IMG/VR virus record: IMGVR_UViG_3300044970_000324
Coordinates: 1-46,237 of that record
DNA length: 46,237 nt
Source of the DNA: a virus
Reading direction: 5' to 3' (one strand)
Shown here: piece after piece, positions 11,275-35,110 of the stretch
Numbering within the stretch: the stretch's first letter is position 1
Layout: each line of letters opens with the position of its first letter
Translations under genes and position numbers: made by a program
The notes under the pieces: model-generated
What the model was told of the DNA's origin: nothing
The model's input: the letters and a program-made list of their open reading frames with translations, nothing else
Database searches by the model: none

Positions 11275-11285
11275 TAGGAGAGAAA

Positions 11286-13967
11286 ATGGCTAGTCCAATT
11301 CCCACACAACTAAGTCCTGGAGTCAATGTTTCTGAAATAGACCTGTCTCAGTTTGTTCAGCCAGAATCACTGAGCAGTGCTGGTATGGTCGGAACATTCA
11401 ACTGGGGTCCAGCATTGGTTGCGACAAGAGTCAGCACCGAAAGCAGCCTTGCTGCTCTGTTCGGAAAGCCCACACTTGATCAATCGGATACCCTTAGCGA
11501 GGATGAGTTCTTCGCCGCCGCCAACTTCCTCAAGTACTCCAACAACCTCAAGGTTGTCAGGCTTCTTCAAGACGATGATCATAATGCAACCACAAGGGAA
11601 CCTGGCATCGATTCGATAGACGATGTTGATCACCCATCAATATCCAACATCGAAGAATTTGCCTTGTTTGGTGGATTCTCTGGTCAAGATGGAATTGAAT
11701 CAACAGCAGTTTTCCGCGCCAGATATCCAGGAAACTTCGGTGACTCCCTCAAGGTTGTATTGTTTGATGGTGGCTCTGGTGATTCAGAAGAGATAATTGT
11801 AAATCAATACCAAGGATTAATTGATCACGAAATTATTGGTGAAAATTTCTTGGGAATAACAAGTGGAACGATTGGATTTACATTTTCGGTTTTCGGAGAT
11901 TTTGGGGACGACAGTGGTGTGAGTCTGGGAATAACATCTGGATCATTTCCATATTACTTGATTGACATAAAACTTCCATTTGGTGATGTAGTATCTGCTG
12001 AACAGTTTGCGTTTGCCTATGCTACAGGCACAACAACTGAAAATTATACATTGATGTCCAATGGAACCCAACCATCTGGAAATAGAACAAAATATTTTAG
12101 ACCTTTTGATTTCGATACCAAGTCTCTATTTAATTTGTTTGGTGATGCCAATAACGGTAGTGATATAAAGCGATTTTTCATTAGACCTCTAACTAGCGAA
12201 TCATCACAAATACTACTACTTGATGCCGACCAGACCAATTTGGGTGGGGCTTTTAGGCAAAATACAACAGTTACATCTGGACCATTTAGTGGTGCCTTAA
12301 TTAATACTTATGGTGCATATCAAGTATCTGGATATCCATCTGGATTCAGTAGAACGATTTTTAACGGTGTAGATCAAAATAGTGATTTTGACTGGTATAG
12401 GTTCTTTGTGTCTAAAATTCCCAACAGAATATTCTCGGGCGGTGTAGCACCAACAACAGGAGTTCGTGGTTTAGCAAAGTTGATAGCAATGACTGGTGGT
12501 GTTTCGTTCAACGCTTGGGGAGACGATGGCAATCAACTCCCAGATGTCGGAGTTACATTCAATACCATCGGTGGTTTGACAGGCATACGCCAAGACTTTA
12601 CCTTCGGACTAAAGCAGTTTGTTTATGATGGAATCTATACTATATCCACTCAAACACCAGGGGGTGCAGTTTCATCCCCACTCTTCGATAAGCCACCACA
12701 GACATCGGCTTATGCCAAGAGCGTCGGTGGTTCCAACGATGAAATCAGTTTTGCAGTCGTGGACACACAAGGAAAGTTCGGACCCAAGAATGCAATCCTT
12801 GAGAGATTCGAATTGCTTTCGAAGGCAGTTGATGCCAAGAACCTCAACAACGAATCGATCTACTACAAGGATTACATCAACTATAACTCAAACTATGTCT
12901 ATATGACCAAGCCACTTGGATTTACAGGTGGTGGAAATGCATCTTCGAATGCCACAACAGCGTTTGGTGACATAGTGCAGAATTATAAGGATGCAGATGG
13001 CAACACTAAGACGCGCGTCGGAATCTATGATGCAAATCTAGAGTTCGGGCAGTCGGGCATTACAACTCCATCTCTTGCTGAGTACACCTCGGCATACAAG
13101 TTGTTTGCAGATGATGATTATGCGGTTGACATACTGTTCTTGCCAGAATCAAGTGTTTCGAATATTTCTGTCGTCTCTGAAACCTACTTGGAAAGCAGGG
13201 TCTATGAAACGGTGATTGCTCCAAGAAAAGACACGGTTCTAATTCTACCTACACCAAAGCCAAGCAGTGGATTGCAACATACGGCAGACATAACCACCAA
13301 GACCATAAATTATAGAAATAGGCTCACGGTTCCATCGAACTCCTACACCATGCTTGTCGCTGGACGCAAGGTCTATTTCGACACATTCAACAATCAAATC
13401 AGAAAGATGTCCCTCTCTTCCGATCTTGCAGGAATTCTTTCCGCACAGGAGATTCCTTGGGAGTCACCCGCTGGATTCGCAAGAGGAAACATCAGAAACG
13501 CAATCAAGTTGGAGACCAACTTCACGAAGGCTGATCGCGACGAACTTTACAAGAATGGCATCAACTTCTTCGTGCAGTTCGGTGATGGAACAGGAACCGT
13601 TCTCTTCGGTGACAAGACCCTTCTCAAGAAGCCAAGTGCCTTCGACAGAATCAATGTTCGTCGCGTGTTCATCGCCCTTGAGAAGGCTATTGCCAAGGCT
13701 TCCAAGTACTCGCTCTTCGAATTCAATGACGAGTTCACCCGTTCGCAGTTCCGCAATCTTGTGACTCCACTCCTCGCTTCCGTTCAGGCACAGCGCGGCA
13801 TCACTGACTTCAAGGTCGTATGTGATGAGACCAACAATACTGCGGAAGTGATAGATAGAAACCAATTTGTGGCAGACATCTACATCAAGCCAGCGAAGTC
13901 GATCAACTTCATCCAGTTGAACTTCGTAGCCGTAAGAAGCGATTTCAACCTCACAACGCTAGAATAA
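11286..13967 (+). CDS. Second, enlarged tail sheath paralogue
   Basis: The 893-aa product begins like the first sheath (TQLSPGVNVSEIDLS, FNWGP, LFGKP, AANFLKYSNNLKVVR) and ends with a nearly identical core (KKPSAFDRINVRRVFIALEK, YSLFEFNDEFTRSQFRNL, YIKPAKSINFIQLNF). It is about 260 residues longer because of extra material between residues about 100 and 480. DNA encoding residues about 170-390 (11800-12450) is visibly richer in A/T than its flanks. AGGAGAG precedes the ATG. It follows the first sheath by 11 nt, so the pair looks like a tandem duplication with later insertion. It may co-polymerise, form a specialised ring or replace the first copy. Its exact role is unknown. Confidence 0.9.
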   Translation: MASPIPTQLSPGVNVSEIDLSQFVQPESLSSAGMVGTFNWGPALVATRVSTESSLAALFGKPTLDQSDTLSEDEFFAAANFLKYSNNLKVVRLLQDDDHNATTREPGIDSIDDVDHPSISNIEEFALFGGFSGQDGIESTAVFRARYPGNFGDSLKVVLFDGGSGDSEEIIVNQYQGLIDHEIIGENFLGITSGTIGFTFSVFGDFGDDSGVSLGITSGSFPYYLIDIKLPFGDVVSAEQFAFAYATGTTTENYTLMSNGTQPSGNRTKYFRPFDFDTKSLFNLFGDANNGSDIKRFFIRPLTSESSQILLLDADQTNLGGAFRQNTTVTSGPFSGALINTYGAYQVSGYPSGFSRTIFNGVDQNSDFDWYRFFVSKIPNRIFSGGVAPTTGVRGLAKLIAMTGGVSFNAWGDDGNQLPDVGVTFNTIGGLTGIRQDFTFGLKQFVYDGIYTISTQTPGGAVSSPLFDKPPQTSAYAKSVGGSNDEISFAVVDTQGKFGPKNAILERFELLSKAVDAKNLNNESIYYKDYINYNSNYVYMTKPLGFTGGGNASSNATTAFGDIVQNYKDADGNTKTRVGIYDANLEFGQSGITTPSLAEYTSAYKLFADDDYAVDILFLPESSVSNISVVSETYLESRVYETVIAPRKDTVLILPTPKPSSGLQHTADITTKTINYRNRLTVPSNSYTMLVAGRKVYFDTFNNQIRKMSLSSDLAGILSAQEIPWESPAGFARGNIRNAIKLETNFTKADRDELYKNGINFFVQFGDGTGTVLFGDKTLLKKPSAFDRINVRRVFIALEKAIAKASKYSLFEFNDEFTRSQFRNLVTPLLASVQAQRGITDFKVVCDETNNTAEVIDRNQFVADIYIKPAKSINFIQLNFVAVRSDFNLTTLE

Positions 13968-13992: not shown

Positions 13993-14586
13993 ATGAACAT
14001 CAAGAGATTTGCCAACGCAATGCAGGGAGCGGGTGTAAAGCCCTCGCTCTTCGAAGTCCAAGGAAACATCGGTCCAACACAAAGCACACTTACGCCATTT
14101 CTTGTGAAGTCAGCATCTTTGCCAGGCACTCAGTTGGGAACCATTGAGATTCCATATCGTGGAAGAAGAATCAAGGTTCCTGGCGACAGAACCTTCAGCG
14201 ATTGGACCATCAACATCATCAATGACAATAAGTTCGAACTACGCAATCTGTTCGAACTTTGGGTAAACAGCATTCAGTCAATGGAGAGAAATGTTTCTGC
14301 CAATGAATTTCAGAATCTTCTTGGACCAGTGTTTCAGGATTGGACTGTCAACCAACTAGATAGAACTGGCAAGCCACTCAAGTCCTACAAGTTGATCGGC
14401 TGCTTCCCAACGGACATCTCCGCAATCGACCTTTCGTATGAAGCAACTGATCAGATTGAGGAGTTCAGCGTGACTCTTGCATACTCGTACTTTACATCCA
14501 ATGTTGGAACACCAGACGCAGGATCACTTCCTGGATTGGCTCCATTGACAGTTGGCTCAGACGCACCACCGTTGATCTCACTATAA
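13993..14586 (+). CDS. gp19: Tail tube protein gp19
   Basis: The 197-aa product is a tail tube subunit of the gp19 family (T4 gp19 is 163 aa). Recognisable segments are LTPFLVKSASLPGTQLGTIE, IPYRGRRIKVPGDRTFSDWT and LRNLFELWVNSIQSMERN. The protein forms the inner tube through which DNA passes. Its C-terminus is extended by about 25 residues rich in Gly, Pro and Leu. AAAGGGAG lies upstream of the ATG. It follows the sheath genes as in T4 (18-19-20). Confidence 0.95.
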   Translation: MNIKRFANAMQGAGVKPSLFEVQGNIGPTQSTLTPFLVKSASLPGTQLGTIEIPYRGRRIKVPGDRTFSDWTINIINDNKFELRNLFELWVNSIQSMERNVSANEFQNLLGPVFQDWTVNQLDRTGKPLKSYKLIGCFPTDISAIDLSYEATDQIEEFSVTLAYSYFTSNVGTPDAGSLPGLAPLTVGSDAPPLISL

Positions 14587-20205: not shown

Positions 20206-20772
20206 ATGAGCGAAGAATACGATTCATCACAGATCAATGCTGCTGCCATCAACGAAGAGGGCATAAGTTACAATGCGTTGCGTAGACAGCCCGTCAATGT
20301 AAACGCATTTCAGAACACCAACTTCAAGTTGACATTCACTCGTATACCGAATGTATCGTTTTGGTGTACATCGATCAACATACCATCCATATCTGTGGGG
20401 GAGATATCAATCCCAAACAGACACCTGACACACCATGTGCCAGGTTCATCGGTTCAGTTCGATCAGTTGAGAGTATCGTTCGAAGTGGACGAAGACTTTG
20501 CAAACTGGTACGAGATACACAAGTGGATGCGTGGAATAGTTCCATTTGAGGACTTCAGCGAACTCTATGCCAATGAAAACAACTACTACTCAGAGGCAAC
20601 CATTCATTGCCTGAATAGCGCAAAGAACCCACATAAGAGGTTTACCTTCAAGAATCTATTCCCAATCAGCATCGATGGATTCGATCTGAATGTTGCATTG
20701 AATGAACCAGAACCTGTTCAAGTAAGTGCGACATTCACATTCGAATCATTTGAACTTGAATCGGTGATTTGA
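20206..20772 (+). CDS. gp3: Tail completion and sheath stabiliser gp3
   Basis: The 188-aa product resembles the gp3 proteins that follow gp23 in cyanophage-type T4-like phages (T4 gp3 is 176 aa). Recognisable segments are NFKLTFTRIPNVSFWCTSIN, IPSISVGEISIP, the VPGSSVQFDQLRVSF strand, and EIHKWMRGI. The fold is probably related to tail-tube proteins. In T4, gp3 caps the end of the tube and fixes its length before gp15 binds. It lies between the gp23 terminator and uvsY, the position I remember for cyanophage genomes. Confidence 0.8.
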   Translation: MSEEYDSSQINAAAINEEGISYNALRRQPVNVNAFQNTNFKLTFTRIPNVSFWCTSINIPSISVGEISIPNRHLTHHVPGSSVQFDQLRVSFEVDEDFANWYEIHKWMRGIVPFEDFSELYANENNYYSEATIHCLNSAKNPHKRFTFKNLFPISIDGFDLNVALNEPEPVQVSATFTFESFELESVI

Positions 20773-20796
20773 CACAGCAACATTCCGCGCTACCAT
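20769..20796 (+). promoter_or_regulatory. Sigma70-type promoter for uvsY
   Basis: TTGACA at 20769-20774 and TACCAT at 20791-20796 are 16 nt apart. The -10 box ends 7 nt before the uvsY ATG at 20804, so transcription would begin at or next to the start codon. No ribosome-binding sequence lies in the gap, which suggests a leaderless message. The -35 overlaps the gp3 stop codon. Confidence 0.5.
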
Positions 20797-20803
20797 ATTC
20801 ATC

Positions 20804-21238
20804 ATGGATATCGAAACAATCAAGAAGATGGTCGATCAGGACATGAAGATAGATGACCTGAATCTAGACCTTGAGTCTCTCAGATCGCCACAACTGCACG
20901 GCAAGTACCTCAACTTGCTTCACGACGAGTCCCTGTCTCTACACAAGGCAAACATAGAGCAGAAGGAACTTCGTCGGCTCAAGTGGGAATACTACCTCGG
21001 CAAGATAGACCAAGAGACTCTTGACGAGAAGGGTTGGCAACCGTTTGGACTCAAGATTCTTCGAACAGACATAGATGTCTACCTTGATTCTGACAAGGAT
21101 CTCCTTCGAATGGAGGCTCGCATCCATTATCTCAAGGAAAAGGTTAAGTACCTTGAATCTGTCCTCCAATCCATCGGAAGGCGCGGATGGGACATCAAGT
21201 CCGCAATAGAATGGAAGAAGTTCATGAGTGGTGCATGA
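20804..21238 (+). CDS. uvsY: Recombination mediator UvsY
   Basis: The 144-aa product matches UvsY (T4 137 aa). Hallmarks are the helical start, LHKANIEQKELRRLKWEYYL, LDSDKDLLRMEARIHYLKEK and SIGRRGWDIKSAIEWKKFMSG at the C-terminus. UvsY loads UvsX recombinase onto single-stranded DNA covered by gp32 during recombination-dependent replication and repair. No Shine-Dalgarno sequence precedes the ATG; a sigma70-type promoter lies immediately upstream. The stop overlaps the next start as ATGA. Confidence 0.92.
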   Translation: MDIETIKKMVDQDMKIDDLNLDLESLRSPQLHGKYLNLLHDESLSLHKANIEQKELRRLKWEYYLGKIDQETLDEKGWQPFGLKILRTDIDVYLDSDKDLLRMEARIHYLKEKVKYLESVLQSIGRRGWDIKSAIEWKKFMSGA

Positions 21239-24126: not shown

Positions 24127-24699
24127 ATGAACGAACAAGGTCACTACATAGACAACAAAACATTCTACGAAGAGATGGTGAAGTGGAAGAAGGACTGCAA
24201 TAGAGCCAAGAGAAAGAAAGAGCCTCAGCCACCAGTAACCGAGTACATAGGCAAGTGCTTCCTTGCCATCGCGGAGAGATTATCCTACAGACCAAACTTC
24301 ATAAACTATCCGTACAGGGAAGAGATGGTTGGGGATGGGATAGAAAACTGCCTGATGTATGCGGCAAACTTCGATCCCGCGAAGTCAAAGAATCCATTCT
24401 CTTACTTCACGCAGATAATCTACTATGCCTTTGTCCGCAGGATACAGAAGGAAAAGAAGCAGAACTACATCAAGTTCAAGAGCATAGAAGTCGCGCAGTT
24501 GAATGGAAAGATTCCAAACTGGCTGAAGAATGTCTGCTATGATGAGGGAAAGGTTCAGGAGTTCTTCAAGTCTCTTGCCTTGTCCGAGACTGATTTGAAG
24601 AACTTTGAGACTTCCCCAAAGAAGGAACCAAAGGCAGAGACAAAGGCAGAAACCAAGAGTCCCGTCAAGAAGGCAGCGAAGAAGAGCAAGAAGAAATGA
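24127..24699 (+). CDS. gp55: Late-transcription sigma factor gp55
   Basis: The 190-aa product matches gp55 (T4 185 aa). The conserved core is seen in AIAERLSYRPNFINY, YREEMVGDGIENCLMYAANF, DPAKSKNPFSYFTQIIYYAF and VRRIQKEKKQ, which is the small sigma-2-like region. gp55 directs host RNA polymerase to TATAAATA late promoters and works with gp33 and the sliding clamp gp45. The C-terminus is a Lys/Ala/Glu-rich tail of about 35 residues, unlike T4. AAAGG lies 8 nt before the ATG. Its stop overlaps the gp47 start as ATGA. Confidence 0.94.
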   Translation: MNEQGHYIDNKTFYEEMVKWKKDCNRAKRKKEPQPPVTEYIGKCFLAIAERLSYRPNFINYPYREEMVGDGIENCLMYAANFDPAKSKNPFSYFTQIIYYAFVRRIQKEKKQNYIKFKSIEVAQLNGKIPNWLKNVCYDEGKVQEFFKSLALSETDLKNFETSPKKEPKAETKAETKSPVKKAAKKSKKK

Positions 24700-25748
24700 A
24701 GATTTGCGTAATAACGGACACCCATTTTGGTGTGAAGAACGATGCCCCGATATTCCTTGAGGCATACCTTTCCTATTTTGAGGAACAGGTTTTCCCCTAT
24801 CTGCTCAAGAACGGCATCAAGACCGTCATTCACATGGGTGATGTGCTTGACCGCAGAAAGTACATAAACTTCAACACTCTACACAATGTTCGACGGAGAT
24901 TTACAGAATGGTTCTCCAAGAACGGGATTGATGTTCATTGTGTCATCGGAAACCACGATTGCTATTGGAAGAACACCAATCAGGTGAACTCCGTTGTCGA
25001 GATCTTTGGAGATACATTCAAGGTCTACGAGAAGCCCACAGATGTTGTGTTGGACGGGATGATCTGCGGATTCGTTCCGTGGATTGCAAAGGACAATGCT
25101 GCGGAGATATACGACTATCTCAAGAACAGCAATGCCGATGTGCTTTTTGGACACTTTGAACTCACTGGATATGAGGTGGTTCGTGGCGTGAAGCACGAAG
25201 GCGGTCTGAATCCATCCGCGCTTTCTAGGTTCAAGCAGATATATTCTGGTCACTTCCATTGCAAGCAGCAGAACGGCAATGTTCATTACCTAGGCACTGC
25301 CTATGAAATGTTCTATTCGGAGGCAACGGAAACCAAGGGATTCCATGTCTTGGACACGGAAGATGGCTCGTTGGAGTTCATTGAGAATCCACGAAAGTTG
25401 TATAAGAAGATATCGTACAACGATGCCCTCGACAACCTTGGTCACGGAAACTTCAACTTCTCTTCGTACAAGGACTCTTTCGTCAAGTTGGTGGTTTCGT
25501 CAAAGAAGAATCCCGCCAAGTTCGACATGTTCTGCGACAAACTCTTCGATTCGGGAATCTACGATCTACAGATTGTGGAGAAACTTGAGGAAGAGGAACA
25601 GGTTGAGGATGAGTTTGTGTCTGAAAAGGAACTATCCAAGAACACCATTGAACTGATCGACGGGTACATCGATGAACTGAAGGTCGATGGTGGGGCTTCC
25701 CTGAAGTCCCTGATGCGGGAACTTTATGCTGAAAGTTTGTCTCTCTAG
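24696..25748 (+). CDS. gp47: Recombination endonuclease subunit gp47 (Mre11-like)
   Basis: The 350-aa product is a metallophosphoesterase of the Mre11/SbcD family, matching T4 gp47 (339 aa). Motifs are DTH (8-10), GDVLDRR (48-54), GNHD (85-88), FGHFEL (151-156) and SGHFH (184-188). With gp46 it resects DNA ends to produce the single strands used by UvsX, and degrades host DNA. The start overlaps gp55 as ATGA. Unusually, its partner gene gp46 begins more than 7.6 kb downstream, with a tail-protein cassette between them. Confidence 0.96.
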   Translation: MKICVITDTHFGVKNDAPIFLEAYLSYFEEQVFPYLLKNGIKTVIHMGDVLDRRKYINFNTLHNVRRRFTEWFSKNGIDVHCVIGNHDCYWKNTNQVNSVVEIFGDTFKVYEKPTDVVLDGMICGFVPWIAKDNAAEIYDYLKNSNADVLFGHFELTGYEVVRGVKHEGGLNPSALSRFKQIYSGHFHCKQQNGNVHYLGTAYEMFYSEATETKGFHVLDTEDGSLEFIENPRKLYKKISYNDALDNLGHGNFNFSSYKDSFVKLVVSSKKNPAKFDMFCDKLFDSGIYDLQIVEKLEEEEQVEDEFVSEKELSKNTIELIDGYIDELKVDGGASLKSLMRELYAESLSL

Positions 25749-25752
25749 TTTC

Positions 25753-25760
25753 CTAAATAT
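25753..25760 (+). promoter_or_regulatory. Late-promoter-like octamer at the start of the inserted cassette
   Basis: CTAAATAT lies just after the gp47 stop and 21 nt before the next ATG, with AGGAGAC in between. It is identical to the elements at 17461 and 37762. Its place at the head of a probable virion-gene cassette fits late expression. Confidence 0.42.
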
Positions 25761-25781
25761 TAGGCAACTAGGAGACATGAG

Positions 25782-26999
25782 ATGGGTAGAGTCCTTACTT
25801 CTGAAGATTTGAGAAATTGGTTCAGCAAAAGCCACCCCGAGGGCGGCTGGAAGCGTATCAACTCCAAGGGAGAGGCGATTGGTCCCTGTGCTAGGGAACC
25901 TGGCGAACCAAAGCCCAAGTGCATGTCAAATGAAAAGAGAGCCATGCTTTCCAAGAGGGAGAGAGCATCGGCTGTCCGCACAAAGAGACGGCACGATCCA
26001 AATCCAGAACGAAAGGGTGAGCCAATCATGGTATCCAATTTTGGCAAGGGCAAGATAAGCGAGGGAAGCGAAGAAAGTAGACGAGAACTTGATGCATATC
26101 GCGCATTGGAAATGGCTAGAGATCGGTCTATTCCAACGGGAACTATTTTCAAGGCAACAGGTGGATATAGACAAAGTGTGGTGGATGCAAGAAACACCAC
26201 TACTGAAAAGAAGACGAAGAAGTCTACTAAGAAAAAGCCGATCAACGAGGAATACGATCTAGATCCAACGGACAGAATATTCGAATCCTTGGATGTTCTT
26301 TTGGAAAAGAATGCTCCCACCAATCCCGAACTTTGGTCGCAAGCAAAGGCAGCGGCAAAGGCAAAGTTTGATGTCTATCCTTCAGCCTATGCCAATGGTT
26401 GGGCTGCAAAGTGGTACAAGAGCAAGGGTGGGAAGTGGAAGTCCGTGGACGAATCCCTAAATGCGTTCTCCTCCTTCGTAGACAAGAAGGCAATCTTGTC
26501 GGAGATGAATACTTTCAGTGAGGTCATCGGCAGAACCGCAGCAGTTGTTGTCGAGAAGCATATCGTTCAGGACAACTTGAAGCCTGGTGTCGGTGCGGAT
26601 CAACTTCGCTCCTTTGCAAAGAAGTTCGGTGCCAAGACGAAGTCTCAGAAGGAAACCACCGAGTTCATGTTCGATGACGAGAACGCCGCAGACTCCTTCA
26701 TGAAAGCCATCACGGGCAAAAGCCTTGCCGAGGCAAATGAATGCGAGGGCAGGAAGGCAGGAAAGCCATGGAGAACTCCTGGTGAGAAGAAGAAGTTTGC
26801 CGTTTGCGTAGACAACAAGATTGTCCGCTTCGGTGATCCTGGTCTTTCCATCAAGCGAGATCAGCCAGGCAGACTCAAGAACTTCCGAGCAAGACACGGC
26901 TGCGACAAGGGTGGCATCTCAAGAGACACGCCAAAGTACTGGTCTTGCCAGATGTGGCGCAAGGACAAGAGTGTGTCAGACCTCACACAGGGGGACTAA
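25782..26999 (+). CDS. Three-module conserved phage protein of unknown function
   Basis: The 405-aa product appears to join three short modules that I recall as separate proteins in marine phages and related bacteria. Residues 1-87 have LRNWFSKSHPEGGW, a Cys pair (IGPCAREPGE, PKPKCMS) and KRERASAVRTKRR. Residues 183-222 have AKAKFDVYPSAYANGWAAKW followed by YKSKGGKWK. Residues 319-396 have ECEGRKAGKPWRTPGEKKKF, VRFGDPGLSIKR and FRARHGCDKGG...KYWSCQMWR. A helical segment lies between the second and third. The paired cysteines suggest metal-binding knuckles. No function is established. It opens the cassette between gp47 and gp46, with AGGAGAC before the ATG. Confidence 0.65.
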   Translation: MGRVLTSEDLRNWFSKSHPEGGWKRINSKGEAIGPCAREPGEPKPKCMSNEKRAMLSKRERASAVRTKRRHDPNPERKGEPIMVSNFGKGKISEGSEESRRELDAYRALEMARDRSIPTGTIFKATGGYRQSVVDARNTTTEKKTKKSTKKKPINEEYDLDPTDRIFESLDVLLEKNAPTNPELWSQAKAAAKAKFDVYPSAYANGWAAKWYKSKGGKWKSVDESLNAFSSFVDKKAILSEMNTFSEVIGRTAAVVVEKHIVQDNLKPGVGADQLRSFAKKFGAKTKSQKETTEFMFDDENAADSFMKAITGKSLAEANECEGRKAGKPWRTPGEKKKFAVCVDNKIVRFGDPGLSIKRDQPGRLKNFRARHGCDKGGISRDTPKYWSCQMWRKDKSVSDLTQGD

Positions 27000-27442
27000 T
27001 GGCATTACTTGTACAGGACTTCTTGGTTGAGCAGGGTTCGACATTCGTTCTTCAGTTCGATCTGAAGAAGGATGACAACACAGCATTGACCACGACACAG
27101 ACAAATCAGTTGACGGCGATTTCATCCGCCACGGACATAACCCTGAGGATGAAGGTCAGGAAGACGAAGTATGGAACAAACACGCCCATACTTGGAATAA
27201 CATACAACGCAGTTTTGCAGAACAATGCCGAAAGCACCGAGGGAAATACCTTCAGCGGATTCTACCTTGATTCGGAGAATCAAGGCAGGGTGAAGTTCGT
27301 GATATCTTCGGATACAACTGCCTCCCTGAAGCATGGAAAGTACTTCTACGATATTGAGGTTGTGCAGACCAAGGCAAGCGGAGTCGAGGTCACAAAGGCT
27401 TTGTCTGGCAGGATGGACATCGAAGCGGAGGCAACGAAATAA
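26999..27442 (+). CDS. Baseplate/fibre-type protein, BppU-N-like (copy 1)
   Basis: The product is 147 aa from the ATG at 26999, which overlaps the previous stop by one base. The pattern is VEQGSTFVLQFDL, ITLRMKVRKTKYG, FVISSDTTASLKHGKYFYDI and ALSGRMDIEAEATK. This resembles the immunoglobulin-like N-terminal domain of phage baseplate upper proteins and is common next to fibre genes. It would attach receptor-binding proteins or form part of a baseplate appendage. It is a clear paralogue of the following gene. The family assignment is from the pattern only. Confidence 0.6.
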   Translation: MALLVQDFLVEQGSTFVLQFDLKKDDNTALTTTQTNQLTAISSATDITLRMKVRKTKYGTNTPILGITYNAVLQNNAESTEGNTFSGFYLDSENQGRVKFVISSDTTASLKHGKYFYDIEVVQTKASGVEVTKALSGRMDIEAEATK

Positions 27443-27891
27443 TGCCATCGCTGAACACCGATCTTTCCGTTGAACAAGGCTCGACATTCGTGCTTGAGTT
27501 TCAGGTATTCAACGATGAACTTCAACCATTGTCTCTACTGACTCCCAGCACAAACGAGTTTGGTACACTGATATATTCTCTTGATGATTACAGCGTTCGA
27601 ATGAAGATTCGAAAGTCAAAGTATCGCGATCCCATCCTGTTCACCGTTGGAACAACGATGACCTATGTGTTTCAGCCAGGTAGCACTCAAGGGTTTGTGC
27701 AAGATGGTGTGTTCTTCGTTGGAGGCTCAACTGGTTTCATGAGGCTTGTCCTCACGGCAGACACCACGGCCACATTCAAGGGTGGTCGTTATTTCTACGA
27801 CATGGAACTTGTTCAGAATGTAAGTGGTGGAGAAATAGTAAGCAAACTTCTTTCGGGAAAGATGGAAGTTGAAGCGGAGTCAACGAGATGA
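27442..27891 (+). CDS. Baseplate/fibre-type protein, BppU-N-like (copy 2)
   Basis: The 149-aa product repeats the plan of its upstream neighbour: VEQGSTFVLEFQVFND, YSVRMKIRKSKYRDP, LVLTADTTATFKGGRYFYDM and LLSGKMEVEAESTR. The two genes touch (TAATG) and the second ends in an ATGA overlap with the giant tailspike gene, so all three appear translationally coupled. Tandem copies suggest stacked or heteromeric adaptor domains connecting the spike to the particle. That role is inferred from neighbours. Confidence 0.6.
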   Translation: MPSLNTDLSVEQGSTFVLEFQVFNDELQPLSLLTPSTNEFGTLIYSLDDYSVRMKIRKSKYRDPILFTVGTTMTYVFQPGSTQGFVQDGVFFVGGSTGFMRLVLTADTTATFKGGRYFYDMELVQNVSGGEIVSKLLSGKMEVEAESTR

Positions 27892-30800
27892 AGATAACGA
27901 ATGTTCGGGTTCTGAACAACTACAAGGTCAAGTTGACGAATGTAAAACTCAGCGGGGTAAACTCCTCGCAGAGTTCTGTCTTTGAACAGGGTACTCGCAC
28001 TCCAGTCATTCCAACGGTTCCGCCTCCAAGTGAAGAAGAGCAGAGATTCAACATAGTGTTTGAATATCTCATCAAGAGGTATGAACCTGGTTGGTCTGCT
28101 GCAACGGAAGAACTTGGAAAAGCAGCGACTTTGACCATTCTTGGCATTTCATCGGCATTGAATCCTCTGTCTGTTGGCGGAACGGTCGAGGCAGCATTCA
28201 ATAATATTGGTACAGGACCAGGTTGGTTTGATCCAATCGTACATCCAAGAAAATTTGCACCCGCTGTTCGATCTGCATATAAGAGACTCGACAGGGCAAG
28301 GAGTCCACAAAGAGCAGCCAACAAGTTCATTCAGCACAATGTGAATGGGTTGTATGTTGAAACTTACAAGCCCTATGGTGGAAACGCTTTCTTTGGATAT
28401 CATCCAGACTTCGATTGGTATCCTGGAAACTCGTTGCCGACTCAGATTCACATGGGTTTCAGTGCCAACCACGACAATTGCATTCGTCGCAGCATACTGA
28501 AGAATCCATATGGATCTTTCAGCAGTCTGATGAGCAACTTGCCTGGCAACTGGAGAAAGACTCCCTGGTTGACAGACAGATATGCAGCAGAGACATCTCA
28601 ATTCGACATGTATCTCCTATTGCGTGAGAACACCACCATCCGCGATCTTCTGAGCGATTACACGACTGGTAGAACAGCAGATCTAGGAGTTGTTGTTGCA
28701 GGAATCACCGATGCAAATCTCAACACTCTTTATCGTGGTGTCTGCTTCGCAGCAGGAACGATATCAATAGTTCCGTTCAATGATTCGGGAAGAACTGGCG
28801 GGGGATATTCGGCTGATCGTGTGGTTGTCGGTTCTCCATGGATTCGTTTTCCAGAAGCCATCACATATTCATATTGGCTTGCGGTCAATCCGAACGAAAT
28901 TGCTGGTCTGTGCTTCAACTACGATAGTCTTATCATGTTCAATGGGAACACATTCCCAGAGAATCCACAGAACATATCCTCATCACTCCCCCTATTCCCA
29001 ATGGCTAATATCGTAGGAGTTTCCTACGGATATGGCAATGCTCTCCTTTCCTCATTGGATGCTCTTTCAGAAGCATGGGGAAATTCGATGGAGTTCATTG
29101 CTCACCTTGGGGATATCCCATATGGTTCTGGCAAGGAAATGCGTATTCCTTTCGCATTGTACAAGGACCCAACCATAGCAGGGAACGAGGATTACTTCAG
29201 TTGGAGACTTGATGCATCCGTATCTCACTGGAAGGAAAAGTTCAAGTCTCCATTCGATGGATTTGCCCATGTTCATATGAACTCAAGTGCGGCGATAGAG
29301 AGAACATATCATCAATGGCAAGCACCTGGCTTCACGCTTTGGACGAACATAGCAAGTTCGGGTGCAAGTTATGCGGATAATATTCCAGTCAAGTGGGCAA
29401 AGACTCAATACGACTACACATACGGAGCATCTGGTCCAAGTGCAGATGCTGGCGTAGTGCTTGGTGTTGGTCGTTTTGTTCAGAGCATGTTCAAGGATGA
29501 CCTTGGTTTGAGTTATGCCAATAGAAACGATCAAAGAAGATTCTATGGGGATGAGAATCCAAGGCACTGGTGCTTGGATAACGACAAGGCGAATGATCTT
29601 CTCACCACGGTCAATGACATTCTTCTTGGTCAAAGAAAATGGGGTATTACATATTCGAACTCCATTTGGGGAATGGGAATATGCGGCACCAGCCAACTTG
29701 GCGAGGTTCAGGCAATCTGTACCCCCGACGAAATGACCGATTCGAACAAGTCCGCAATGAGTGCATTGTCGTGCTTCTACAATTCGTTCATAGATGTGGA
29801 GAGCGACGGAGACATCAAGTGGAAGAGAATTGATGGAACATTCACATCCTTTGTTGGAAATAGCAACGGCGTTTCTTGGGTGAATGACCGCCGTTTCCGT
29901 CTATTCTATCTCTATCCAACCATGCTCGCGCTGAACATGTCGATTGTTGACTATTTCCATGATGGAATTGGCTACTACAATCTTGAGAACAAGTCTGGAT
30001 GGTACGACAAGGCTCTTGGTAATATATTCACCACCAACATGGAAGGTTTTGGTAATGTTGTTTCAAACTTCCCATATCCAAACAGGGCTACTACAACCAA
30101 GCCACCACAGAACTTCTGGACTGGCATTGCAAGAACATCCGAGTTTGAACTTCTTTATGCTTGCATGAAGGGTGGAGTAACCACAGGTCTCGACTCACTT
30201 TTCTTCACAGAACTCTATAATGAACTTGTGAATGGGGAAATCACGCAAGTCACAGAACCAGAGCAGCACAGGATATTCGTCTCTGGCTCGACAGGAAATG
30301 ACCAAAACGATGGTATTGCTGCACCGGTGAAGACTCTCTATCGCGCAATGGATATTCTTGATGCTTATTCTGGAGCAATGCCTGTTACTGTGGAGATAGG
30401 TTCTGGAACCTATGAAATATTCGATAAGCCTCTTCACATAACGAATAGTTTTAGCGGAACCACGGACAGACTCGTCACAATCAAGGGAGCATCTGGTGCA
30501 GATGTTGTGATCACCAGTTCCAAGCAGATCGGTGTTTCTGGCATAACTCTTGTTGATGCTGGAGACCCTCTCTACAACAGATTCAAGACATCTGTTGTAG
30601 GAAACATCTACAAGGCGCAACTCAGCGATTTTGGGTTGTTGGATGTTGGAGTCTTTGGAAACATCAGAGACACTTATCCAATCATACCAGCCTTCCTCAG
30701 CGTAAACACGGATGTGTTCAATGGTAGAAGGGTTGGTGCCAAAGACTTGCCAACTCTTCCTGAGGTTACATTCAACGGAACCCGCATGACATTGGCGCGA

Positions 30801-32810
30801 TTTCCGAGCATAGGAACTGGACCATACTCATCCGAGATAAGTCCAGATTCAAGTGCATTCATCGAACAGGTGATTGAGAAGGGGTCTGGTCTTTCTGTAA
30901 CAACACCGGGATCAACATTCGGCATATTCACATATCCATCTGGAGTATGCTATGGAATAGATTATAGCGGAATCACACGGTGGGCATCGCGTGTTGGACC
31001 TGGTCCGACATCAGACATTTTTGTTCAAGGATTCTGGAGGTGGGACTGGAACGATGAGGCATACAGGGTAAACTCCATAGACACCAACACAAGACAAATC
31101 ACCGTTAGATCGAATGACTCTGCGTATGGAATAGGAAAGGTGGTGTCTTGTGAAGCATCACAATATGTGGCATCAAACCCATCCCCAAAAAGATGGTTTG
31201 CAATGAACATTCCAGAGGAACTGGACACAACAGGAGAATACTATATCTCGCGAGGTCTGAGCGCAGGGGTGGTGGACACGATCTATTTCTATCCACCATC
31301 TGGCGTTACTGCTGGAAGCAAACTCAGGGTTTCCACTGCAAGAATGGCTGGAGGGGTTTTGTGGTTTGCAGGAACACCGGGATATAGTTCCGGAAATCAA
31401 ACCCAGTCACAGACAGCAGTGAACACAAGAGATTCTTTCTCTGCCATGATGAAGATGTACAAATCGGACAATATCATAATCCAAGGTTTGACCTTTGATC
31501 TCTGCTCCAGTTCGGCAATTGAGATAGATCAGTGCAGGAATGTACAGGTGAAGAACTGCACCATAAAGAACATGCGTAAGGATGGAATTCGCATCCTTGA
31601 TGGAAAGGATGTCCTTGTTGACGGCTGCACGATACGAGATGTCGGTCTTAAGGGAATAATCTTGACTGGTGGAAACAGGCAGACGCTGACGGGATCTGGC
31701 AACATCGTTTCCAACTGCACGATAAAGGGATTCGGAAAGTTGTCTCACTCCAATGGTGCGGCTATTCAAATGTCGGGTGTCGGCAATACTATCAGGAGAA
31801 ATCTGATTGCCGATGGTAATGGAAAAGCAGTTGATTACGCTGGCAACAACAATCTCATAGAGTTGAATAATTTCAGCAATCTTGGGTTCTATACCGATGA
31901 CATGGGAGCGGTTTACAAGTATGCCGATCCATCATGCGTCAACAACACCATAAAGAACAACTTCTTCAACAACATTGGTGGAAAAATGGCGGGTGGTATA
32001 GCCCTTGATTTCTGCGAGGGGAATCACCTACACAACTCATGTGCAATATACTTTGACTACAGCGGTGGTGGCGATAGGATCATTGGAAATGTATTCTATC
32101 AATGCGGCACATCTTTGTCTGATGTGGACAATGCCATATTCATAGGCGGAACAGACATACTGATACAAAACAACATATTCATTGATCAGACCCGCGCATC
32201 GACATTCGTCAAATTCAATGAAAACAACTGGAACAACCTGTGGACTATTACAGAAATCAAGCATTGCACATTCAACAAGAATGGAGATCCATGGCTTGAA
32301 CGAGATTCCATAACTGATACGGCTGACAAAAGGTATGGGTACACACCATATTCATACCATGAAACAAACTATGGTGAGGTGTCCTTTACCGAAGGAAATT
32401 TAAACTATGCTGGATTGTACAACAAGGTTGACATGAGAAGCACCACATGGGCAAACAATTCGGATGCGACACAGCACATCTCCAGTGTTCTTGTGTACAA
32501 TCCAAACACCGATGTTGTTTCCGTGAATTTTGCCAACATAGAAAGAAATCTTGCCAAGAACAATGTGTGCATTGGAACTACATCTGGTGAAACAAATGTA
32601 TTCTTGGAGAAAGTGTATGCAACAGGAAATTTATATGGTGGTTTCACCTTCTCGGGAACAACATTCAGCAGCATAAATGGAGCATCGGGATATTTCAGCA
32701 ACTACAGCAACAAGAACTTTAAACTTACTCCAAGTGGTCTTGCGGCAATTCAACAAAGCCTTCCTGGCTTCGAAGATATTCCGTTTGAAAACATTCCTGT
32801 CTACTCCTAG
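27888..32810 (+). CDS. Giant tailspike/fibre protein with parallel beta-helix domain
   Basis: The 1640-aa product is the largest in the window. Residues about 1-50 form a short N-terminal part. Residues about 50-785 are a large domain I do not recognise, rich in Trp, Tyr, Phe and Asn, which could be a carbohydrate-active fold. At about 790 a right-handed beta-helix begins (RIFVSGSTGNDQNDGIAAPV, TYEIFDKPLHI), with pectate-lyase-like repeats at about 1195-1465 (NIIIQGLTFDLCSSSAIEID, VQVKNCTIKNM, NNLIELNNFSNLGF). Such spikes bind and cut surface polysaccharide. No catalytic residues can be assigned with confidence. It overlaps the upstream adaptor gene by 4 nt. A host-recognition depolymerase is the likeliest role. 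Confidence 0.75.
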   Translation: MKITNVRVLNNYKVKLTNVKLSGVNSSQSSVFEQGTRTPVIPTVPPPSEEEQRFNIVFEYLIKRYEPGWSAATEELGKAATLTILGISSALNPLSVGGTVEAAFNNIGTGPGWFDPIVHPRKFAPAVRSAYKRLDRARSPQRAANKFIQHNVNGLYVETYKPYGGNAFFGYHPDFDWYPGNSLPTQIHMGFSANHDNCIRRSILKNPYGSFSSLMSNLPGNWRKTPWLTDRYAAETSQFDMYLLLRENTTIRDLLSDYTTGRTADLGVVVAGITDANLNTLYRGVCFAAGTISIVPFNDSGRTGGGYSADRVVVGSPWIRFPEAITYSYWLAVNPNEIAGLCFNYDSLIMFNGNTFPENPQNISSSLPLFPMANIVGVSYGYGNALLSSLDALSEAWGNSMEFIAHLGDIPYGSGKEMRIPFALYKDPTIAGNEDYFSWRLDASVSHWKEKFKSPFDGFAHVHMNSSAAIERTYHQWQAPGFTLWTNIASSGASYADNIPVKWAKTQYDYTYGASGPSADAGVVLGVGRFVQSMFKDDLGLSYANRNDQRRFYGDENPRHWCLDNDKANDLLTTVNDILLGQRKWGITYSNSIWGMGICGTSQLGEVQAICTPDEMTDSNKSAMSALSCFYNSFIDVESDGDIKWKRIDGTFTSFVGNSNGVSWVNDRRFRLFYLYPTMLALNMSIVDYFHDGIGYYNLENKSGWYDKALGNIFTTNMEGFGNVVSNFPYPNRATTTKPPQNFWTGIARTSEFELLYACMKGGVTTGLDSLFFTELYNELVNGEITQVTEPEQHRIFVSGSTGNDQNDGIAAPVKTLYRAMDILDAYSGAMPVTVEIGSGTYEIFDKPLHITNSFSGTTDRLVTIKGASGADVVITSSKQIGVSGITLVDAGDPLYNRFKTSVVGNIYKAQLSDFGLLDVGVFGNIRDTYPIIPAFLSVNTDVFNGRRVGAKDLPTLPEVTFNGTRMTLARFPSIGTGPYSSEISPDSSAFIEQVIEKGSGLSVTTPGSTFGIFTYPSGVCYGIDYSGITRWASRVGPGPTSDIFVQGFWRWDWNDEAYRVNSIDTNTRQITVRSNDSAYGIGKVVSCEASQYVASNPSPKRWFAMNIPEELDTTGEYYISRGLSAGVVDTIYFYPPSGVTAGSKLRVSTARMAGGVLWFAGTPGYSSGNQTQSQTAVNTRDSFSAMMKMYKSDNIIIQGLTFDLCSSSAIEIDQCRNVQVKNCTIKNMRKDGIRILDGKDVLVDGCTIRDVGLKGIILTGGNRQTLTGSGNIVSNCTIKGFGKLSHSNGAAIQMSGVGNTIRRNLIADGNGKAVDYAGNNNLIELNNFSNLGFYTDDMGAVYKYADPSCVNNTIKNNFFNNIGGKMAGGIALDFCEGNHLHNSCAIYFDYSGGGDRIIGNVFYQCGTSLSDVDNAIFIGGTDILIQNNIFIDQTRASTFVKFNENNWNNLWTITEIKHCTFNKNGDPWLERDSITDTADKRYGYTPYSYHETNYGEVSFTEGNLNYAGLYNKVDMRSTTWANNSDATQHISSVLVYNPNTDVVSVNFANIERNLAKNNVCIGTTSGETNVFLEKVYATGNLYGGFTFSGTTFSSINGASGYFSNYSNKNFKLTPSGLAAIQQSLPGFEDIPFENIPVYS

Positions 32811-32839
32811 TTGACAAGCCGCTGTAGTTGGGTTATCTT
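32811..32839 (+). promoter_or_regulatory. Sigma70-type promoter for the gene at 32846
   Basis: TTGACA at 32811-32816 immediately follows the tailspike stop, and TATCTT lies at 32834-32839, 17 nt apart. The -10 box ends 6 nt before the ATG at 32846 and no ribosome-binding sequence fits in between, so the transcript would be leaderless or nearly so. Confidence 0.55.
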
Positions 32840-32845
32840 CTCGCC

Positions 32846-33364
32846 ATGAACATCTTCGTACTGAACCGCGATCCATTTCTCGCAGCATTTGACATGTGCG
32901 ACAAGCATGTGGTCAAGATGATTTTGGAGGGCTGTCAGATGCTTTCCACAATCCATCGAATGGCGGGAAGCCATGTTGTCCATGCCCCCGTTGATCTATA
33001 TAAGATGGCATTCGCAAACCATCCATGCACCGTGTGGGCAAGAATGTCGGCAGAAAACTACATGTGGCTTGCAAACCACACACACGCATTGTGCAATGAA
33101 TATACAAACAGATATGGCAAGACCCACAAGGCATCGGAGATGTCCTGTTGGTTTTGCAGACATGTCCCGCCAAATCTGCATCATTTCAAGGTGACTCCAT
33201 TCGCACAGGCAATGCCAGACAAGTACAAGCATGAGGATGCTGTTGTTGCCTATCGTCAGTATTACCTTGGCGAGAAGGCTAGGTTTGCCAAGTGGAAGCA
33301 TGGAAACATTCCCGCTTGGTTCGATCAAAAGAATCCGATGCTTGGTCTTGAAGTTGCCATATAA
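32846..33364 (+). CDS. Conserved phage protein with CDKHVVKM signature
   Basis: The product is 172 aa from the ATG at 32846. An in-frame TTG at 32828 lies inside the promoter and is rejected. The sequence (MNIFVLNRDPFLAAFDMCDK, HVVKMILEGCQMLSTIHRMA, FANHPCTVWARMSAENYMWL, TPFAQAMPDKYKHEDAVVAY) belongs to a family I remember as widespread in T4-like and other phages and in some bacteria. I have a faint memory of annotation as a pyrimidine-dimer glycosylase-like protein, but cannot support that from motifs. Conserved His and Cys residues could bind metal. It has its own promoter, unlike the late-looking cassette upstream, so it is probably an early or middle gene. Confidence 0.7.
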   Translation: MNIFVLNRDPFLAAFDMCDKHVVKMILEGCQMLSTIHRMAGSHVVHAPVDLYKMAFANHPCTVWARMSAENYMWLANHTHALCNEYTNRYGKTHKASEMSCWFCRHVPPNLHHFKVTPFAQAMPDKYKHEDAVVAYRQYYLGEKARFAKWKHGNIPAWFDQKNPMLGLEVAI

Positions 33365-33367
33365 ATA
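33360..33367 (+). promoter_or_regulatory. Late-promoter consensus octamer upstream of gp46
   Basis: TATAAATA, the exact T4 late consensus, spans the end of the preceding gene and lies 12 nt before the gp46 ATG. In T4, gene 46 is early, so a late promoter here would be unexpected; the octamer may be chance overlap with the TAA stop. The resulting leader would barely include the GGAG ribosome-binding site. Confidence 0.3.
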
Positions 33368-33379
33368 CCGTTGGAGTGA

Positions 33380-35110
33380 ATGATGTTAGTCTTTGAGATC
33401 ATCCGCTGGAAAAACTTCCTTTCTTACGGCAACTACTTCACGCAGTTGAACCTCGCCAAAACAGAGATGACTCTGATCTGTGGCGAGAACGGCGCGGGTA
33501 AGACCACATTCCTCGACGCGCTTACCTTCTGTCTGTTTGGCAAGCCTTTCCGCAACATAAACATTCCGCAACTGCCGAACAGCATCAACAACAAGGATTG
33601 CCTTGTCGAGTGCGAGTTCCGTGTTGGTAATGTCAAGTATCTTGTTCGTCGTGGATTGAACCCAAAGATATTTGAGATCCACAAGGACGGCAAACTTCTT
33701 GATCAGGATTCCAAGTCCAAGGACTATCAGAAGATGTTTGAGGAGCAGATCCTCAAGATGTCCTACAAGGCATTTTGTCAGGTTGTGATTCTTGGATCGA
33801 CAAACTATGTCCCCTTCATGAGATTGCCAGCGGCTGACCGTCGAGCCATCGTGGAATCCCTCTTGGACATCAGCGTCTTCTCTTCCATGAATGCAGTCCT
33901 CAAGGACAGGGTTTCATCCAACAAGGATGATTTGCGTACATGTGAGACATCCGTGGAGATTCTTGAGAGCAAGAAAGAGACGCAGAGAAAGTATCTTGAA
34001 GCCCTTGGGGAGAAGAGTCGATCATCCCTTGAGGGGCTTGAGGAAGAGATTCTGAGCAATGAAAAGGTTCGTGATTCCCTTTCTGCTGTTGTCATTAAGG
34101 GTGGGAACATTCTGACAACTCTTGGGAAAAACCGAGATCTTCGTCGCAAGAAGGAACAATCCATCAGCGACATGACAAAGATTCGAACTACTCTTGAGAA
34201 GAGGTTCAATATCCTTGTGGAGGAGACATCGATCCTTGTTACGACCAAGGATGTTCCCTGTCCTTCCTGTGGTCAAACTCTCACCGATGAACACCGCGAG
34301 AAGGAGATTGTAGCCAAGAAGGAGAAGACCGAGGAGATTCGAAAGGCTCTTCTTGATGTGGAGTCTCGTATTGCTTCCGAAAGGAAATTTCTTACGGACA
34401 ACAAGTTGGATAATATTGAAGTGGAATACGACAAGTTTCTTTCTGTGCTAAACGAGCATAGGCAGAAACTGGCCGTTGCAGAGAAGATGATCGAACGACT
34501 CAAGACGGATGTGGAGAAGATCAAGAAGTCTCAGCAAAGCCTGACAACCGAGCAGGATGTTCTTGATGAACTTGAGCAGAAGTGGGAAGATGGAAAGAAG
34601 CACTATGTCGAAAAGCAAGAGGAGCAGAAACTCCTGTCGTCCGCGCAGACGGTGCTGAAGGATAGTGGAATCAAGACGCGGATCATCAAGCACTATCTTC
34701 CGATCATGAACAAGTTGATAAACCACTATCTTGCTTGCATGGATTTCTTCGTGCAGTTCAACCTTGATGAGAACTTCGGGGAAACTATCAAGTCAAGGCA
34801 CAGGGACGAGTTCACATATGCTTCCTTCAGCGAAGGCGAGAAGATGCGTATCGACTTGGCATTGCTGCTTGCGTGGAGAGAGGTTGCGAGGTTGAAGAAC
34901 AGCACGAATTGCAACCTGTTGGTACTTGACGAGGTGTTCGATTCAAGCCTAGACTCCACGGGAATGGACGAGTTCATGAAACTTATCAAGAGCCTTGGCA
35001 AGAGATGCAACATATTTGTCATCTCACACAAGACGGATCAACTCACGGATAAGTTTCAGGACATACTGACATTCAGCAAGAAAAACAACTTTAGCAGGAT
35101 CAACCAATGA
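33380..35110 (+). CDS. gp46: Recombination endonuclease subunit gp46 (Rad50-like)
   Basis: The 576-aa product is an SMC/Rad50-type ATPase, matching T4 gp46 (560 aa). Walker A GENGAGKTT is at 35-43, the zinc hook CPSC at 294-297 in the middle of a long coiled coil, the signature FSEGEK at 483-488, Walker B LLVLDEVF at 513-520 and the switch His at 550. It drives gp47 nuclease in DNA end resection. Two ATGs in a row (33380 and 33383) are possible starts, after GGAG. It is separated from gp47 by a tail-protein cassette but is followed by the usual clamp and clamp-loader genes. Confidence 0.96.
   Translation: MMLVFEIIRWKNFLSYGNYFTQLNLAKTEMTLICGENGAGKTTFLDALTFCLFGKPFRNINIPQLPNSINNKDCLVECEFRVGNVKYLVRRGLNPKIFEIHKDGKLLDQDSKSKDYQKMFEEQILKMSYKAFCQVVILGSTNYVPFMRLPAADRRAIVESLLDISVFSSMNAVLKDRVSSNKDDLRTCETSVEILESKKETQRKYLEALGEKSRSSLEGLEEEILSNEKVRDSLSAVVIKGGNILTTLGKNRDLRRKKEQSISDMTKIRTTLEKRFNILVEETSILVTTKDVPCPSCGQTLTDEHREKEIVAKKEKTEEIRKALLDVESRIASERKFLTDNKLDNIEVEYDKFLSVLNEHRQKLAVAEKMIERLKTDVEKIKKSQQSLTTEQDVLDELEQKWEDGKKHYVEKQEEQKLLSSAQTVLKDSGIKTRIIKHYLPIMNKLINHYLACMDFFVQFNLDENFGETIKSRHRDEFTYASFSEGEKMRIDLALLLAWREVARLKNSTNCNLLVLDEVFDSSLDSTGMDEFMKLIKSLGKRCNIFVISHKTDQLTDKFQDILTFSKKNNFSRINQ

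Follow-up and report, generated by a model that had tools for sequence, protein, structure and literature searches.

In phage T5 the tail collar is formed by protein p132, which anchors the L-shaped tail fibre and has a fold that has been linked to BppU_N (PMC10038345). Density between the p132 subunits could correspond to approximately 50 N-terminal residues of the fibre, and a mutant with a truncated fibre lacks the collar (PMC10038345). Among T4-like phages, mosaicism of the tail-fibre genes and the hyperplastic g15-g18 region of cyanophages are known (PMC2993671; PMC2984593), and in marine members the tail-fibre genes are not easily recognized from sequence (PMC2993671). Here we analyze a cassette of genes located between gp47 and gp46, which encode the two subunits of a recombination nuclease, in a T4-like phage represented by IMG/VR virus record IMGVR_UViG_3300044970_000324 (46,237 nucleotides, referred to as the window). 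The sample otherwise consists of metagenomic contigs.

The interval between gp47 and gp46 (positions 25749–33379, 7.6 kb) holds five genes, all on the same strand: P (405 aa), Bpp1, Bpp2, a spike gene (1640 aa) and PyrX (172 aa). An initial annotation of the window had placed a tail-fibre cassette here, and its placement was exact, as gp47 ends at 25748 and gp46 starts at 33380. P, Bpp1, Bpp2 and spike are linked in series by overlapping start and stop codons. With a probability of approximately 0.7, we consider the locus to be a late-expressed socket-and-plug adhesin cassette that was inserted once and was diversified by homologous replacement at a fixed site. The nearest named phages are cyanophages (gp46 approximately 43% identical), and a megablast of the region against phages gave zero matches. 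In the literature, searched mostly without subscription journals, we found no paper on a fibre cassette between gp47 and gp46.

Distribution of the cassette and exchange of its alleles

Conserved flanks, variable content and phylogenetic conflict, the features expected of an exchange hotspot, were all found at this locus. At the DNA level, contigs L080 and L078 are nearly identical in gp55 (98.6%), gp47 (99.2%), P (98.9%) and PyrX (97.1%), whereas identity is 82.4% in Bpp1, 77.1% in Bpp2 and 70.9% in module A of the spike, the latter across the alignable 67%; module B is present in L078 and not in L080. Comparison of L067, L069 and L081 gave flanks that are mostly 94–100% identical, with 82–93% for module A and 64–85% for module B where alignable. 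Between the window and L069, DNA identity is 71% in the spike and 87% in the flanks. The PyrX proteins of L073 and L015 are 98% identical and their Bpp1 proteins 45%, and the spike of L015 consists of the anchor alone. In maximum-likelihood trees L080 and L078 are sisters both in gp55+gp47 and in PyrX (100/100), but module A of the spike pairs L080 with L075 (100/100). The Bpp alleles of the anchor-only contigs L084, L079 and L015 cluster together (100/99), while PyrX puts L015 with L073 and L079, and L071 joins L082/L084 in PyrX (100/100) but the window in gp47.

On the best reading of these alignments and trees, the allele differences would be replacements at a fixed site by homologous recombination, with suggested breakpoints at Bpp1 and at the PyrX promoter. 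The hotspot that had been proposed for the interval stands in one respect, with flanks that are 97–99% identical around diverged or absent spike modules and with conflicting gene trees, but the interval is not open to varied cassettes. A cassette of unchanged gene content throughout the close relatives had been named as the finding that would contradict a hotspot; this is the situation for the framework, and variation lies in the module set of the spike and in the allelic forms of Bpp1, Bpp2 and spike.

IMG/VR was scanned with gp46 (63 loci) and gp47 (30 loci) as queries, by which the same contig can carry two names (L002=L081, L005=L069, L007=L067, L011=L080, L013=L073, L009=L079, L016=L077, L063=L071, L057=L075, and L019=L084). 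The order gp47-P-Bpp1-Bpp2-spike-PyrX-gp46 is found in all 17 cassette-bearing contigs, and where gp46 identity is approximately 66–93% and the contig spans the interval, the cassette is always there. Relatives among the IMG/VR loci with a gp46 identity of 40–49% have no cassette. In a sister clade (L024, L028-L033, L051, and L054) the order is gp47-PyrX-x-gp46, with a gap of approximately 1.06–1.13 kb, which places the insertion point between gp47 and PyrX. PyrX is probably the ancestral neighbor of gp47, and gene order is most simply explained by one insertion, between these two genes, in the ancestor of the clade.

The gap between gp47 and gp46 is 26 bp in L041 and 14 bp in L090, both without the cassette, and other relatives lacking it carry a zeta-toxin-like ATPase, a SET-domain protein, or a dCMP deaminase and FkbM methyltransferase as cargo. 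In another T4-like lineage (L037:6805-9824) other small genes occupy the interval, one of which has a match to a zeta-toxin-like ATPase. The named T4-like phages that were examined have no cassette: the gap is 0 bp in Melnitz, 0.6 kb with one oxygenase gene in Mosig, and approximately 0.27 kb with one small open reading frame (ORF) in S-PM2 and S-CAM1, a single-ORF state shared by ACG-2014h, S-RIM4, and RN05-S. The earlier description of genes 47 and 46 as nearly adjacent in T4 needs correction, since in T6 small ORFs fill a gap of approximately 1.3 kb; in cyanophages the gap is approximately 250 bp. In phiM12, no BppU-domain gene lies beside gp47-gp46 within 60–109 kb, the sole part looked at. 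The slot between gp47 and gp46 often takes small genes, and the adhesin cassette is confined to one clade.

The Bpp1-Bpp2 pair and the modular spike

Bpp1 and Bpp2 are paralogues of approximately 148 aa with approximately 43% identity, starting at 26999 and 27442. The ATG of Bpp1 overlaps the stop codon of P (a longer TTG start is not conserved), the ATG of Bpp2 overlaps the Bpp1 stop, and Bpp2 and spike overlap in the sequence ATGA. Bpp1 weakly matches PHROG 3304 (L-shaped tail fibre assembly, E 1.3e-4), and Bpp2 is without such a match. An AlphaFold2 (AF2) model of Bpp1, based on a 25-sequence alignment, reached a predicted local distance difference test score (pLDDT) of 88. Structural comparison of this model with VIA-align gave T5 7qg9_L as the best match (Z 10.7, root-mean-square deviation 2.6, 115 of 140 residues), followed by DT57C 8hqz_T (Z 10.6), a Douge baseplate (9.5), a connector protein (8.3) and an 80alpha baseplate (8.2), with ordinary immunoglobulin (Ig) domains at approximately 7.8 or lower. 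A sequence search of the PDB with the T5 frame upstream of ltf returned chains of 7qg9 and 8hqz (140 aa), named p132 or L-shaped tail fibre assembly; this frame ends at the start of ltf, which it overlaps by 1 nt. The model predicts a T5 p132-like Ig fold over most of the length of Bpp1.

The spike of the window comprises an anchor (aa 1–41), module A (aa ~45–785) and module C (aa ~795–1640), and has no module B. Its N-terminal 41 residues are common to every spike allele. An anchor alone, as a protein of 50 aa, is encoded in L009, L015, and L019/L020. The other sets are A (L008/L057, L011, and L016), A-B (L005, L007, L013, and L078), A-B-B' (L082), A-C (the window) and A-B-C (L002 and L063/L006). 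Module C is a beta-helix (Pfam PF13229 Beta_helix, 52.9 bits with a cut-off of 25.9; PHROG 7458 tail spike, E 3e-7). The initial description of a 1640-aa beta-helix spike thus holds for the C-terminal half (~795–1640), while residues 45–785 belong to another module, for which no relative is known.

In IMG/VR, module A occurs at the gp47-gp46 locus only, and no homologue was found in 50,697 phage records, 84,980 prokaryote species genomes, Pfam or the PDB. Invariant W, D, H, and G residues are numerous in both module A (740 aa) and module B (620 aa); a reading of the two as duplicated units was rejected, as hhalign showed no relation between them. The 2124-aa spike of L082 (L082:8111-14485) carries B and, after it, another, diverged copy of B (approximately 24–34% identity), suggesting that spikes may grow by module duplication. 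Sequence comparison with the PDB also gave a weak match to 26dk_M ('Structural protein', E 4e-4). Large proteins were also noted elsewhere, including a 1610-aa ORF without PHROG match in a 156-kb relative (L128:11861-16690) and a 1751-aa protein of PHROG 358, a family of unknown function, that adjoins baseplate wedge genes (L133:3542-8794).

The 50-aa anchor-only genes of L009 and L015 differ by 15 synonymous and 2 nonsynonymous changes, a ratio of nonsynonymous to synonymous rates (dN/dS) of 0.023, compared with approximately 0.32 against L019. The gene is under purifying selection and, given the dN/dS of 0.023, is not a decaying remnant.

Promoter-like elements and the proposed model

Directly after the gp47 stop codon, TTTCCTAAATA is present in 16/17 rows of the cassette contigs, with one extra T in some. 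The late-type element reported at the head of the cassette (CTAAATAT, 25753-25760) was recovered, and the sequence at this position, CCTAAATA, differs from the T4-type late consensus TATAAATA at two positions. The late motif of S-PM2 is NATAAATA (PMC2984593). Each of the seven TAAATA sites on the + strand of the window has a gene start 11–50 nt downstream (nominal P 7e-10), and two of the sites coincide with stop codons. In the 156-kb relative, TAAATA is likewise found ahead of tail-fibre and tail-tube genes. Late-type elements are not limited to the cassette, as TATAAATA precedes gp46 in the window (at 33360) and many relatives have TATAAATA or ATAAATA upstream of gp46; transcription of this gene may thus take place early as well as late. 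In several relatives (among them L009, L013, and L015) the late-type element, at the place that corresponds to 25750–25768 of the window, is part of the palindrome TTCCTAA-ATA-TTAGGAA.

Upstream of PyrX, 15/15 cassette contigs have the sequence TTGACA/T-16/17-TANNNT, with exactly 6 nt between its end and the ATG and a score of 9–11 of 12 (base-shuffled sequences score 7.2 on average and reach at least 10 in 0.8%). It is absent from 11 relatives without the cassette, in which PyrX starts at the gp47 stop. As a scan for sigma70-like elements in the whole region gave no excess over shuffles, the case for a PyrX promoter rests on conservation and not on the scan. In its sequence features the element resembles a sigma70-type promoter, and from its distance of 6 nt transcription is predicted to begin on the A of the PyrX ATG, giving a leaderless mRNA. 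Neither this element nor the anchor-only alleles formed part of the initial annotation. An arrangement close to that of PyrX was seen at uvsY (window 20769–20806), where TTGACA-16-TACCAT ends 7 nt before the ATG, with a similar element at the homologue in G001.

We propose that a receptor-binding cassette entered between gp47 and PyrX once, in the ancestor of an uncultivated T4-like clade, and would subsequently have been diversified by homologous replacement at this fixed site. Bpp1 and Bpp2 would form an Ig-fold tail collar, as T5 p132 does, into which spike residues 1 to ~41–50 would be threaded; by analogy, the constant anchor of 41–50 residues fits the collar-bound part. The remaining spike (none, one or several of A, B, B', and C) would project as a variable adhesin or tailspike. 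The location of this assembly in the virion, its binding to a receptor and the stoichiometry of the collar are what we infer. The late-type CTAAATA, presumably dependent on gp55 (encoded at 24127–24699 in the window), would switch the cassette on late, and the sigma70-like, apparently leaderless promoter after the cassette would restore early PyrX-gp46 transcription, by which the nuclease genes could tolerate the insertion. More tentatively, and with somewhat less than even confidence, the 50-aa anchor-only protein may act as a plug, holding the Ig-fold collar together when no fibre is present. If so, the clade would alternate between fibre-bearing and fibreless virions through swaps of the whole Bpp1-Bpp2-spike unit at one fixed site, with the cassette's own late and early promoters insulating the replication genes.

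The identical framework genes and gene order in all close relatives would also be expected of an ordinary, vertically inherited cassette, in which the spike evolves fast under host-driven selection, through rapid divergence and internal deletion, and no recombinational hotspot exists. Spikes that are often only moderately less similar than their flanks, such as those of the window and L069, agree with this. We nevertheless consider it improbable, in view of the highly supported conflict between gene trees, of the partly unalignable spikes and the extra module between the flanks of L080 and L078 (approximately 99%), and of L015 and L073, which share a near-identical PyrX while Bpp1 differs widely and one of them has no spike beyond the anchor. 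Unlikely, though less so, is that the 1640-aa protein and collar are a virion-associated enzyme or decoration, for instance a cell-envelope-degrading tail enzyme on an Ig-fold platform. The invariant residues and unknown folds of A and B could suit this, beta-helix domains often act on polysaccharide, and stacked tandem domains suit enzymes. However, gain, loss and replacement of modules in backbones that are approximately 99% identical are typical of host-range determinants, and the anchor-only alleles indicate that the function is dispensable. The enzyme alternative also overlaps with an adhesin cassette, as tailspikes commonly join binding and depolymerase activity. Very improbable, in our view, is that the late and early promoter elements are due to chance or serve other roles, as translation signals or as part of the palindrome at the end of gp47. 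The coincidence of TAAATA with a stop codon in two of seven cases would fit such roles, a match to consensus is not evidence of function, and the sigma70 scan was overall no richer than shuffles; yet the PyrX spacing is exact in every cassette contig despite unrelated upstream spike ends and the element is missing where the cassette is missing, CTAAATA is kept in nearly all rows, and each + strand TAAATA site precedes a gene.

Several observations weigh against a late-expressed adhesin cassette itself. Neither Bpp1 nor Bpp2 matched Pfam BppU_N at E <= 0.1, and for this reason they are not filed as members; their earlier label, BppU-like, is without support from Pfam but agrees with the predicted fold, for which T5 p132 is the closest structure. 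For modules A and B neither relatives nor known folds were found, so that the term adhesin draws its support from module C, the fold of Bpp, the layout of the genes and the variability; an AF2 model of module A (11-sequence alignment) had a pLDDT of 30 and was discarded. Few distinct sequences, all from metagenomic assemblies, underlie the spike analysis. The promoters are sequence matches only, and because gp46 has its own late-type element, a strict boundary between early and late transcription is not shown. Finally, further tail-fibre genes are present in the 156-kb relative, and the cassette may for this reason be a secondary adhesin.

Features of the locus and comparison with known systems

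Coordinates of the cassette, its flanking genes and the promoter-like elements in the window.
Feature	Position	Strand	Basis
gp47 (SbcD-like recombination nuclease subunit), left flank	24696..25748	+	PHROG 100, E 2.7e-100
Spacer with late-type element TTTCCTAAATATTAGG (CTAAATAT at 25753-25760)	25749..25781	+	Kept in 16/17 rows
P, 405-aa multi-module protein	25782..26999	+	PHROG 727, E 9e-19
Bpp1, putative p132/BppU-like Ig-fold collar or adaptor protein	26999..27442	+	PHROG 1084, E 2e-11
Bpp2, Bpp1 paralogue	27442..27891	+	PHROG 1084, E 3e-12; alignment
Spike, 1640 aa	27888..32810	+	Pfam Beta_helix, PHROG 7458, module map
Sigma70-like putative promoter TTGACA-17-TATCTT	32811..32845	+	Same element at same distance in 15/15 cassette contigs
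PyrX (Pyr_excise-like, PHROG 624)	32846..33364	+	PHROG 624, E 1e-58; Pfam PF03013, 38.6 bits (cut-off 23)
Late-type element TATAAATA overlapping PyrX stop, ahead of gp46	33360..33367	+	Sequence match
gp46 (SbcC-like recombination nuclease subunit), right flank	33380..35110	+	PHROG 77, E 2.8e-163

Protein P consists of an N module (aa ~8–117), a DUF5872-like module (aa 179–218; E 0.0015, under the cut-off) and a C module (aa ~274–393). Its homologues range from 120 to 590 aa and vary in module content among relatives, and the N and C modules are also found in cyanophages and HTVC008M. The N module appears promiscuous, with up to ~58% identity in cyanophage proteins adjoining gp16, one of which is named DUF6321.

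The gene order of the window is gp13-14-15-16-17-18-18'-19-20-21-22-23-19'-uvsY-dCMP deaminase-uvsW-gp55-gp47-[cassette]-gp46-gp45-44-62-regA-gp43. The initial annotation had situated the cassette within the recombination or early module; the order gp23-uvsY-uvsW-gp55-gp47 instead puts the site at the edge of the structural block. Two tail-sheath genes in a row (9376–13967; 632 and 893 aa, both PHROG 23) were observed, the second of which far exceeds the family length, as were two tail-tube-like proteins (PHROG 45; 13993–14586 and 20206–20772). The second of the latter follows gp23 and, speculatively, might correspond to a platform ring such as T5 p140 or T4 gp54. Between gp15 and gp16 lies an 823-aa ORF (4721–7192) without PHROG match, in a region that corresponds to the hyperplastic g15-g18 region of cyanophages.

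If the proposed model holds, a whole uncultivated clade gains an adhesin locus of defined position and limits, in which socket and anchor are constant and the tips can be exchanged, and because conserved flanks enclose the locus, host-range modules should be recognizable in metagenomes by these flanks. The anchor-only alleles, being under selection, would provide a natural test of the idea from T5 that the N terminus of the fibre is needed for collar assembly. The element upstream of PyrX-gp46 suggests how a replication operon could accommodate a late structural insertion, and predicts a leaderless early transcript.

As in the cyanophage g15-g18 region and T4-like mosaicism in general, a hypervariable gene set lies amid conserved T4 core genes. 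The cassette differs in its position at gp47-gp46, in carrying a putative adhesin and not metabolic genes, in its fixed framework and in having promoter-like elements on both sides. The C-terminal half of the window spike resembles right-handed beta-helix tailspikes (PF13229, PHROG 7458), with a score above the Pfam cut-off, but here the beta-helix is only one optional module (C), placed after a 740-aa module without known relatives. With BppU/FibL-type adaptors (TP901-1 BppU_N, the 80alpha baseplate, and phiM12) the cassette would share an Ig-like adaptor fold, N-terminal in position, to which receptor-binding proteins are attached; the phiM12 BppU-domain protein S5MV39 was among the BFVD structure matches, and the 80alpha baseplate chain is the one that scored Z 8.2. 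In contrast to these adaptors, Bpp1 and Bpp2 consist of the Ig domain alone and are without the Pfam BppU_N match. The L-shaped fibre of T5 and DT57C differs from the cassette, which has two collar paralogues where T5 has one, occurs in a T4-like phage with sheath genes at a site among recombination genes, and has a spike built from modules A, B, and C for which anchor-only alleles exist. Alike in both are an Ig-fold collar protein, predicted for the cassette, of 140–149 aa, whose gene lies directly upstream of and overlaps the fibre gene, and the length of the attaching part, since approximately 50 N-terminal residues of the T5 fibre are thought to attach (PMC10038345) and the anchor of the cassette spike measures 41–50 residues.

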